Part shown: in pieces, positions 1,245 to 40,259 of the stretch
How positions within the stretch are numbered: position 1 is the stretch's first letter
Layout of the letters: every line of letters starts with the position of its first letter
From: Candidatus Calescibacterium sp.
GTDB lineage: Bacteria; Calescibacteriota; Calescibacteriia; Calescibacteriales; Calescibacteriaceae
Reading direction: 5' to 3'
DNA length: 64,000 nt
Assembly: GCA_025060505.1 (NCBI GenBank)
Contig: JANXBU010000005.1
Coordinates: 1-64,000, forward strand
Notes under the pieces: generated by a model
Told to the model about the DNA's origin: nothing
Seen by the model: the letters and a program-made list of their open reading frames with translations, nothing else
Database searches by the model: none
Position numbers and translations under genes: made by a program

Positions 1245-3248
1245 ATGAAAATAAAAGAAAAAACAAAAAATATAAACCAAAAAATAGCGGCAGTTGGTTT
1301 GTTCCTATCTGGTATTATAGTAGGCACAACAATAGTTGCCACAGTCTCTGCACAACGTGAGACTGACAAAGTCCTTGAAATAGCAAAAGCAAGAGGTCTC
1401 AACCCAGATCACATAGAAGCTGCTCTGAAAACCTATCATCCCACAGGTATGAAAGATGAGTATATTATGTTCTCCTCTGGTGGGCACTCAGGGCAGGTTA
1501 TAGTCATTGGAATACCATCTATGAGAATCCTCAAGTACATAGCCGTCTTTACACCTGAACCTTGGCAAGGTTGGGGATACGATGATGAGAATATAGAAAT
1601 ACTTCGCGGAGATCTATGTGATCCACAACGTGCAAAACTCACATGGGCAGACACACATCACCCAGCAATATCTGAAACCAACGGAGATTATGATGGTCAG
1701 TTTCTGTTCATTGGAGATAAGGCTAACTCACGTCTAGCAGTCATATCTTTGAAGGACTTCGAAACAAAGCAGATAGTATGCAATCCTCTTGGAAATTCAA
1801 ATCACGGTGCAGCTTTTGTGACACCTAATTCCGAGTACATAATAGAGCCATCACAGTATGCTGTTCCACAAGGAGGAAGATACGCACCAATAGATAAATA
1901 TGCAGAGCAGTTCAGAGGCTATATTACATTCTGGGCGTTTGATAGAGCAAAAGGTAGAATAGACACTGAAAAATCCTTTGCAGTAGAGGTTCCTCCATAC
2001 TGGCAGGATCTTTGCGATGCAGGAAAGGGTCCAAGTTACGGATACGCATTCTGCAACTCTTTCAATAGCGAAATGGCAACTGGTAGAAAAACTCTTGATA
2101 GTAAAGAACCTCCGCTTGAAGTTGGTGTTTCCGCGAACGATATGGACTACCTTCACATAATCAACTGGAAAAAAGCAGAAGAACTTGTAAAAGCAGGGAA
2201 ACACAAAGAGGTAGTAGGTGTTGGAGGATTCAAATTCAAGGTTATTCCACTTGATGTCGCAGCAAAAGAAAGGATACTGGTATTCACACCGGAACCGAAG
2301 TCTCCACACGGTGTAGATGTATCTCCGAATGGAAAATGGATAGTTGTTGGTGGAAAACTTGACACAAATGTCAGTGTATACTCCATAGAGAAAATAAAGA
2401 AAGCAACAGAAGCAAACAAGTTTGAAAAGACAGATAGGTACGGTGTTCCAATAATAGCTTTCAAAGATGCTCTTGAAGCCCAGGTTCAGATTGGTCTTGG
2501 ACCTCTTCACACTGTTTTTGATGATAAAGGCTTCGCGTACACTTCTGTTTTCATAGAGTCTGTTGTTGCAAAATGGAAACTTGAAGAATGGAAACTTGTT
2601 GAAAAACTTCCGGTTCACTACAACATAGGACACATCGCAGCAGCAGAGGGAGATACAGTCGCTCCCGACGGAAAATATGTTATAGCTCTGAACAAGTGGT
2701 CTATCGATAGGTTTTCACCTGTTGGACCCCTTCATCCACAGAACTTTCAGCTCATAGATATATCTGGTCCGAAAATGAAGCTTCTTTACGACATGCCAAT
2801 ACCACTTGGAGAACCTCACTACGCACAGGTGATAAAAGCAGATAAACTTTCTCCATGGCTGGTCTATCCAGAAGTTGGTTTCTCTCCTGCTAAAATGAAA
2901 AAATCGGCACACGCAGTTGAGTTTGGGAAGGAAAAGATTGTAAGAAAAGAGAACAAAGTAGAAATATACATGACTGCCATAAGATCAAGATTCACTCCTG
3001 AAATAATAGAAGTAAATCAAGGAGATGAAGTTACATTCTACATCACAAATGTTGAAAGAGCAAGAGAAGCTACACACGGTTTTGCTCTCGGTGGATATAA
3101 TGTCAACATATCAATAGAACCAGGGGAAACAGGTTCATTCACAATAAAAGCGGATATGCCCGGGGTATTCCCATTCTACTGCTCTGAGTTCTGCTCTGCT
3201 CTACACCTTGAAATGGCGGGGTACCTGCTTGTAAAACCTAAAAAATAA
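1245..3248 (+). CDS. nosZ: nitrous oxide reductase, Sec-type (clade II)
   Basis: It reduces N2O to N2 in the periplasm. The ATG at 1245 follows AAAGGAGGT with 7 bases between, giving 667 residues. The N-terminus is a hydrophobic Sec signal ending near Val-Ser-Ala-Gln with no twin arginine, as in clade II enzymes. A seven-bladed propeller follows with the histidines expected for the CuZ centre, including His138-His139 (Thr-His-His-Pro) and later Asn-His-Gly, Pro-His-Gly, Pro-Leu-His and Leu-His-Pro motifs. The C-terminal cupredoxin domain has the complete CuA motif Cys646-x3-Cys650-x3-His654-x2-Met657. Nothing is truncated. The downstream small exported gene and nosDFLY complete the operon. 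Control is presumably through the triple operator upstream. Confidence 0.97.
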   Translation: MKIKEKTKNINQKIAAVGLFLSGIIVGTTIVATVSAQRETDKVLEIAKARGLNPDHIEAALKTYHPTGMKDEYIMFSSGGHSGQVIVIGIPSMRILKYIAVFTPEPWQGWGYDDENIEILRGDLCDPQRAKLTWADTHHPAISETNGDYDGQFLFIGDKANSRLAVISLKDFETKQIVCNPLGNSNHGAAFVTPNSEYIIEPSQYAVPQGGRYAPIDKYAEQFRGYITFWAFDRAKGRIDTEKSFAVEVPPYWQDLCDAGKGPSYGYAFCNSFNSEMATGRKTLDSKEPPLEVGVSANDMDYLHIINWKKAEELVKAGKHKEVVGVGGFKFKVIPLDVAAKERILVFTPEPKSPHGVDVSPNGKWIVVGGKLDTNVSVYSIEKIKKATEANKFEKTDRYGVPIIAFKDALEAQVQIGLGPLHTVFDDKGFAYTSVFIESVVAKWKLEEWKLVEKLPVHYNIGHIAAAEGDTVAPDGKYVIALNKWSIDRFSPVGPLHPQNFQLIDISGPKMKLLYDMPIPLGEPHYAQVIKADKLSPWLVYPEVGFSPAKMKKSAHAVEFGKEKIVRKENKVEIYMTAIRSRFTPEIIEVNQGDEVTFYITNVERAREATHGFALGGYNVNISIEPGETGSFTIKADMPGVFPFYCSEFCSALHLEMAGYLLVKPKK

Positions 3249-37402: not shown

Positions 37403-38281
37403 TTAGCCCACCATACCTTGAACAGACAAAACAACACGATGAAGGCAGTCCATCATAGAAACTAATTCTGATACCTCAATAGACAAATCCATAATATTCT
37501 TGCTGATTTCCTGAATAACTTTTGACTGCTCCTCAACAAATTGAGAAATATTGATAGTTTCATCTCCAACAGATTTAAGCGAGCTCGATACATTAACGAA
37601 ATATCTTTTGAGCTCATTCAGATCATTTGATATATTGTTCATAAAAGATACTAACTCCTCCATTATTGACTTCAACTTTCCTACTATCTCTGAAAACTTC
37701 TGAGCTCTTTTCTTTTGCTCCTTCGATATGTTCATTATCTTCTCGGAAAGCTTTCTTATTTCAACAGCTACAACCTCAAAACTTTTTCCATTAGCTCCCG
37801 CACGAGATGCTTCTATGGAAGCGTTAAGAGAAATAAGATTGGTCCTATCTGCTATATCCTCTATCTCGTTGAAAGACTTCAAAAGAGCATCAGATATTGA
37901 AAGAAGTTCTTGAACAACTTTCAAAAGTTCTTGAATAACCTTCAACCTATCTGTAATCACTTTGACCTTTCGATCTAAGTCCTTCTCATAGTTAATCACA
38001 CCAGACAAAACATACCTAACCCTTGAGTCTATCTCACTAACTCTCCTTGATATTTCCTGTATGGTTGAAGAAAACTCCTCAGTAGCATTTGAAACAGATG
38101 TTGCCTGAGATGATATATTTGAAGCTTGTTTCTTTACAATATCAAACGAATGTAAAACCAAGTCAGACGAAAGAAGATAACCAAAAGGATATCTTGAAAT
38201 GTTTTTTAGAGAAGACATAAGATGAACTTCCACTCTGTTTGAATTATTTGGGTTCTGATCTTCTTTCCTATTCCAAAACAT
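37403..38281 (-). CDS. soluble methyl-accepting chemotaxis-type receptor
   Basis: 292 residues, no membrane helix and no recognisable ligand domain. Long coiled coils flank a receptor tip at about residues 143-180 ([14 protein letters not shown]), the site that contacts CheA and CheW. AAGGAGG precedes the ATG. It lies 35 bases after the oxygen-binding di-iron-like gene on the same strand, so it probably takes its signal from that protein. Such a soluble receptor/ODP pair is known from Treponema denticola. Confidence 0.87.
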
Positions 38282-38316
38282 AGTTTTCTCCTCCTTGTTT
38301 TACTTTTCTATAAAAA

Positions 38317-39099
38317 CTAAGTTCCATATATTTCATCTATTATATCCCCACCGCAACGCAAATTCTCAAGCCAGTTCAGAAATTTTTTAACATTCTCGCC
38401 ACTCATTATAGCACCATGCTGTGGAGCTATTATGTTTATCTCAAACCTTCTAACAATAGATACCCACTTCCTCAGAACATCGTTCCCCTTCATATATCTC
38501 CTGTGAAACCATTCCATATATCTGGTATGCTTCTCAAAGTTCTCTACCTCAAAATATAAATCTTCATCCGGCATCACTGAAGCACCTATGTCTCCAGAAA
38601 ACAAAATCTTTGCCCGAGGATCATATAGAGAGAAATTACCTTCAGAATGAAGAAAATGTGCCGGTATTATCTTCAAAGTTGTTCTTGAAAGATTAAAGTC
38701 CATTCCCTTATCTGGTATAGTCTCAATTCTATTAACATCAGTAAACCCAAAGTGAGGCACAAACCTGAGCCATAGACGAGAAATAAGAATCTTGACGTTA
38801 GGACAAACATTCATAAAAAGACCTATACCAGATGAAACATCTGGATCCTGGTGTGAGTAGAACAGATATTTTATTTTATCAAGCGGAATGTACCTTGAAA
38901 CAGTTGTTATCACATGCGGAAACACATGTACTCCACCCGGATCAAGAAGAACACCCTCATCACCATCCACTATAAGGAACTGATTGGCTTGAAATTCACC
39001 TGATTTCTTGTAAGACCACCCAAGCCAAATAAACTTATGATCTTTATCCGAGTAAAGGACCTTTCCCTTTTCCATCTCATCTTTAGATATTCCGCGCAT
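38317..39099 (-). CDS. oxygen-binding di-iron-like protein (ODP, metallo-beta-lactamase fold)
   Basis: 260 residues. The ATG at 39099 is chosen because AAAGGAGGTG lies 9 bases before it; an earlier ATG at 39135 lacks this. Putative iron ligands are His83-x-Asp85-x-Asp87 (the loop His-Gln-Asp-Pro-Asp replaces the hydrolase His-x-His-x-Asp-His), His148, Asp170 and His228. This modified set is that of flavodiiron-related oxygen-binding proteins rather than hydrolases, and no flavodoxin domain is attached. With the soluble receptor directly downstream, an oxygen or redox sensor for chemotaxis is the likely role. Confidence 0.78.
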   Translation of the reverse strand: MRGISKDEMEKGKVLYSDKDHKFIWLGWSYKKSGEFQANQFLIVDGDEGVLLDPGGVHVFPHVITTVSRYIPLDKIKYLFYSHQDPDVSSGIGLFMNVCPNVKILISRLWLRFVPHFGFTDVNRIETIPDKGMDFNLSRTTLKIIPAHFLHSEGNFSLYDPRAKILFSGDIGASVMPDEDLYFEVENFEKHTRYMEWFHRRYMKGNDVLRKWVSIVRRFEINIIAPQHGAIMSGENVKKFLNWLENLRCGGDIIDEIYGT

Positions 39100-39309
39100 G
39101 TCCACAACACCTCCTTTTTGTTGCAAACCGTTCATAAAAAATACACTTTATAGAGTTGATTGTCAATATCAAAAACCTCCTAACTAAGATGTAGTTTAAT
39201 AACTTTTGAGTGTAATTTATTCTTTTATTTCAGTTTTTCACAAATAAATTACCAGAATAAAAATCGGAAAAAAGCAAAAAACATAACCAGAAAAATTATC
39301 TTTCAAACT

Positions 39310-39660
39310 ATGCTCGGTTCTGTAAAAGATAAAAAATATATAAAACTCATAGAGGATAAATTTGTAAGGAAAGACCTTCCAGAAATAAAACCTGGGCAAA
39401 TAGTTCGTGTTTGGTATAGAACAGAAGAAAAAGAAAAAAAGAAGCTCTCTTCTTATCAAGGAATAGTAATCGCAGTAAGAGGATCCGGAGCATCAAAAAC
39501 ATTCACGATAAGAAATGTTCTCAGTGGTGTAGGTGTAGAATGGATCATACCTATAAATTCTCCGCACATCGAAAAAATAGAAATAATAAATCAAACGAAT
39601 GTGAACAGAGCAAAACTCTATTACCTCAGAAACGTAAAAAGTTCAGAATTACCAACATAA
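39310..39660 (+). CDS. rplS: ribosomal protein L19
   Basis: 116 residues. Recognised from Pro-Glu-Ile-Lys-Pro-Gly-Gln-x-Val-Arg-Val, Tyr-Gln-Gly-Ile-Val-Ile-Ala-Val-Arg-Gly-Ser-Gly, Thr-Phe-Thr-Ile-Arg and Ala-Lys-Leu-Tyr-Tyr-Leu-Arg. It is found alone, without trmD, rimM or rpsP, between sensory genes. The next 220 bases (39661-39881) hold nothing I can identify. Confidence 0.96.
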   Translation: MLGSVKDKKYIKLIEDKFVRKDLPEIKPGQIVRVWYRTEEKEKKKLSSYQGIVIAVRGSGASKTFTIRNVLSGVGVEWIIPINSPHIEKIEIINQTNVNRAKLYYLRNVKSSELPT

Positions 39661-39881
39661 TACATATTGAATAGCTTTAACAATATATAAGACACAATGC
39701 ATAAACGCTAAGGATTCAGGAGATAGTGTAAAACTTACAGAGGTTGATAGAAACACAGCAAAAACTCATTTCCATCAATGCATCTGTAGTAGCCAGGTGG
39801 CTCGCTGTAGCTTATGGTTATAGTGAATGCTTACTCTGTTTGAAAAATCTTTTTCAGTTCAGAAGAATCTTCAAGTAGGAG

Positions 39882-40259
39882 CTATCTGATTGAATCCTTC
39901 CACTCCATCATAGCTTTTGTTAGCCTCGCTGATGCTTGAGAGAAATCTCCACTAACAGAAAGCATTTTTTCCGCTTCATCTACTCTACCTTGGTTTATGT
40001 ATTCTATAACTCTGGCGGCGGTCTTGTGGAATTCTGCATGAAGTTCTTTCACTTTTCTGTAATATTCTGAGATGTCATTGACTGAATAGAGCCACTTGCC
40101 AAAATCACAGTTCCTATCTGACCTTACAAAATCAACAGAAAAATCTATTTTCTTGTTTTGGATGGCTTCTTTGAATCTTGCTTTCCAAAGATTATGAGCC
40201 GCAATAGCCTTGTCTATATTTGATTTGATTTCGTTCCCGTTCGCTTCCCCGTTGTTCAT
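39882..40259 (-). CDS. free-standing CZB zinc-sensing domain
   Basis: 125 residues, a helical bundle with the chemoreceptor zinc-binding (CZB) pattern: His22-x-Leu24, Cys51-x-Phe-Gly-x-Trp56, and His74-x3-His78. The 3His/1Cys set binds zinc and responds to oxidants such as hypochlorous acid in known receptors. CZB is usually fused to a chemoreceptor or a diguanylate cyclase. Here it is a separate gene 0.8 kb from the soluble receptor/ODP pair, with rplS between. AAAGGAT precedes the ATG. Confidence 0.82.
   Translation of the reverse strand: MNNGEANGNEIKSNIDKAIAAHNLWKARFKEAIQNKKIDFSVDFVRSDRNCDFGKWLYSVNDISEYYRKVKELHAEFHKTAARVIEYINQGRVDEAEKMLSVSGDFSQASARLTKAMMEWKDSIR

Follow-up and report, generated by a model that had tools for sequence, protein, structure and literature searches.

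The locus described here raises the question of whether adjacent genes of redox-sensor families make up one sensory module. The window, a 64,000-nucleotide stretch of a Candidatus Calescibacterium contig, encodes an oxygen-binding di-iron protein (ODP), a sensorless cytoplasmic chemotaxis receptor (MCP) and a stand-alone CZB protein, which a preliminary description had joined into a three-part sensor. The three open reading frames it had proposed were all recovered, and each exceeds its curated Pfam cut-off, with E-values that place the family matches far above chance level. The best explanation of the locus, to which we assign a probability of roughly 0.87, is a vertically inherited sensor pair of ODP and soluble MCP with an unrelated CZB gene as its neighbor.

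The ODP and the membrane-free receptor are encoded as an operon on the minus strand (37403-39099). The ODP gene (38317..39099, minus strand) specifies 260 amino acids (Pfam PF19583, E 1.4e-76). A longer frame begins at 39135, and its second ATG (M13), at 39099, is preceded by AAAGGAGGTG. Because this ribosome-binding site, the length of ODP relatives (~260 aa) and a promoter-like site all agree with it, 39099 rather than 39135 is most likely the true start. The promoter-like site, TTGACA-17-TATTTT (39138..39166, minus strand), lies upstream of the operon with 10 of 12 consensus matches; as the product of a consensus scan it marks a candidate promoter and is not proof of function. The receptor gene (37403..38281, minus strand; 292 aa; Pfam PF00015, MCPsignal, E 9.8e-25) follows on the same strand after a 35-bp gap, with the ribosome-binding site AAGGAGGAG. 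A terminator scan found none. The CZB gene (39882..40259, minus strand; 125 aa; Pfam PF13682, E 3.5e-13) is set apart from the pair by rplS, which the preliminary description had omitted. This gene for ribosomal protein L19 (39310..39660, plus strand; TIGR01024, 104.2 bits against a cut-off of 90.7) reads the other way, so the CZB gene shares no direct transcript with the pair.

Pfam and PDB matches identify the ODP as an MBL-fold protein of the ODP family without a flavodoxin or rubredoxin domain. Its matches to solved ODP structures are strong (PDB 6qrq, E 1e-92; 6qnm, E 3e-89), and flavodiiron NO reductases are weak matches far below them. Six residues, H95, D97, D99, H163, D182 and H240 (272-aa numbering), are invariant in 82 sequences and probably constitute the iron ligands, all of them retained in the window protein. 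Their roles were assigned by alignment to flavodiiron proteins. ODP domains also occur fused to a GGDEF diguanylate cyclase (L043:6069-7712) and to an adenylate/guanylate cyclase (L046:5981-7606), and such fusions suggest that ODP may feed second-messenger signaling outside chemotaxis.

The gene directly downstream of ODP, read in the same direction, encodes a sensorless MCP at 79 of the 80 closest loci, a count that holds for this clade and not for all ODP-domain proteins; the single exception is a Thermococcus. These loci come from phyla that include Aquificota, Spirochaetota, Thermotogota, Nitrospirota, Synergistota, Campylobacterota, Thermodesulfobacteriota and Dictyoglomota, and the pair is thus tightly kept over many phyla. 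The family relatives G001, G003 and G004 carry it with unchanged gene order at different sites of their genomes, G014 also has an MCP directly after ODP on the same strand, and no close ODP was found in the family relative G002. Distances between ODPs and between their MCPs correlate (r 0.865, a raw value uncorrected for shared ancestry). In the ODP tree, the window protein groups with Calescibacteriota relatives (Candidatus Calescibacterium nevadense, HR19) with support of 99/99. The ODP–receptor pair is also known from Thermotoga, and the window extends it to Calescibacteriota, bacteria of hot springs that are uncultivated and possess nosZ and oxygen reductases. In two Nitrospirota loci (L099 and L107), a 658-aa MCP lies directly after the ODP-MCP pair, with a CZB match in L099.

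This conserved arrangement bears on whether the ODP is a sensor at all. It distantly resembles flavorubredoxin and flavodiiron NO reductase, and with a denitrification gene close by it could be a flavodiiron-like enzyme that scavenges NO or O2. Such an enzyme is highly unlikely here, as the protein has neither of the two accessory domains, its best match by far is ODP, and its coupling to a receptor is almost invariant among the closest loci.

The receptor has no transmembrane segment (maximum 19-residue hydropathy 1.26) and is predicted by AlphaFold to form a single helical hairpin, with helices at 14-160 and 162-291 (mean pLDDT 88); together, hydropathy and the predicted hairpin indicate that it has no membrane or sensor domain. 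At 6 of 20 near-invariant positions, all of them close to the signaling tip, its residue is not the consensus one; no other intact ODP-coupled receptor compared has as many departures. In addition, position 163 is A, a site occupied by E or D in many relatives. With the six departures, the receptor may couple to CheA/CheW less strongly or in a changed way. They could also be taken as the mark of a degenerating receptor, whose signaling tip drifts as the ODP is retained for some other role, but the reading frame is intact behind a good ribosome-binding site, N153, E157, R160, F168 and E174 are retained, and the tip changes are mostly conservative. The MCPs of relatives are fast-evolving as well, at 35% identity versus 72% for ODP, and we regard degeneration as improbable. 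Because core residues are kept, the divergent tip is better read as adaptation or drift than as loss. Another MCP of the same genome (L051:2419-3957; G000:C93) is broken by one in-frame TGA and represents a pseudogene or an assembly error.

The CZB gene is the only one in its genome. Its product has a predicted CZB-like fold, for which the top match is the DgcZ CZB domain (3t9o; probability 1.00 with a weak E of 0.065), and its putative zinc ligands, H22, C51, H74 and H78 (3His/1Cys), are invariant in stand-alone relatives. Those relatives (34-44% identity) are isolated genes in two genomes (G258 and G107) and on two proteobacterial plasmids; tblastn searches returned two lone CZB genes from plasmids and no match from phages. 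The nearest full-length relatives sit away from chemotaxis genes, and the plasmid settings include transposases alongside. An origin as the remnant of an MCP-CZB fusion was rejected, since the full-length stand-alone relatives share both ends. CZB domains are proposed to sense how much Zn is available, as a proxy for redox state (PMC13370339), which makes a stress or redox role likely for this protein.

In the three-part sensor, the free CZB would dock on the receptor coils and add a zinc/oxidant input to the ODP-receptor pair. The genes do lie within 3 kb, and CZB is fused to soluble receptors elsewhere (PMC8262984) and within the same family in G004, where the single CZB resides inside a receptor on another contig. 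Against such docking stand the opposite-strand rplS between CZB and pair, the unrelated settings of the stand-alone relatives, such as plasmids beside transposases, and the distribution of the genes. No CZB was found in the family genomes G001, G002 and G003, of which G001 and G003 are sister genomes that carry the pair. Single absences are weak evidence in family assemblies that are 82-86% complete, and a test of 50 other pair-bearing genomes is firmer. A CZB domain occurs in 24 of these 50, in every case within a long frame except for one cut by a contig end, and a confirmed stand-alone CZB in none (0/50). The short CZB of G061 was considered as a stand-alone gene of a pair-bearing genome and rejected, its frame being cut by the contig end. 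Among the 80 ODP loci, just one has a CZB domain within 5 kb of ODP, and there it is part of a 658-aa MCP.

The co-occurrence in relatives that the preliminary description had looked to as a check of its three-part sensor therefore failed, and with CZB unlinked to the pair in every relative examined, the sensor itself is not supported. We consider it very doubtful, and a physical CZB–receptor interaction in trans is unsupported. Least probable of all is a change confined to one lineage, in which the free CZB has come to influence the ODP-coupled receptor in trans and the divergent tip reflects that change; if true, the receptor would combine oxygen, iron and zinc input. The locus is a warning that adjacent redox-sensor genes should not be taken as one module without a test of linkage.

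The sensor pair has partners available elsewhere in the genome. The CheA and CheW genes that the preliminary description had suggested looking for are present, two of each, and one CheA-CheW set adjoins a flagellar export gene. FliG is encoded as well, and 11 MCP domains exceed the cut-off. The genome also encodes two COX1 proteins (haem-copper oxidases), and nosZ lies in the window at 1422-3239 (TIGR04246, above cut-off) and is common to all five family genomes; the premise of a facultative N2O respirer holds as gene content. With CheA, CheW, FliG, the oxidases and nosZ all encoded, a role in oxygen/iron taxis is plausible. By analogy with Treponema denticola, the di-iron ODP would bind Fe(II) and O2, and contact between the two proteins may relay its iron-peroxo or apo state to the hairpin of the sensorless receptor. 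The hairpin, sitting among the receptor arrays of the cell, would change CheA activity through CheW, again as in T. denticola, and the change in CheA would steer swimming by oxygen and iron state. The CZB protein would have no relation to the pair and act separately, as a stand-alone protein that is transcribed on its own and responds to zinc/oxidant.

Each half of the locus can be set beside known systems. With soluble CZB receptors of the TlpD/McpA type it has the CZB domain in common, and differs in that its CZB is neither fused to nor genetically linked with a receptor. The window protein instead resembles CZB-only proteins, a known and common class that makes up 27.1% of CZB sequences (PMC8262984), in its 3His/1Cys motif, lone domain, ~125-aa length and the absence of an Arg after the Cys, with no clear difference. 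For the pair, the comparison is with T. denticola (Muok et al. 2019, cited in PMC7666581), in which TDE2498 is the ODP and senses oxygen, and the MCP TDE2496, devoid of membrane and sensing modules, modulates CheA (PMC7666581). As that pair is already described, the window pair belongs to a known kind of sensor, and the likeness proposed in the preliminary description is borne out by ODP identity, ligands and gene order. Judged from its sequence, the window operon clearly adds a new member to the known ODP–soluble-MCP sensor pairs. Compared with T. denticola, the two genes and their order are alike, the ODP is close over its full length with metal ligands kept, and the receptor likewise has no membrane or sensor domain. 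The window pair differs in its lineage, Calescibacteriota, in a genome with two CheA genes where T. denticola has one, and in the greater divergence of its receptor tip.
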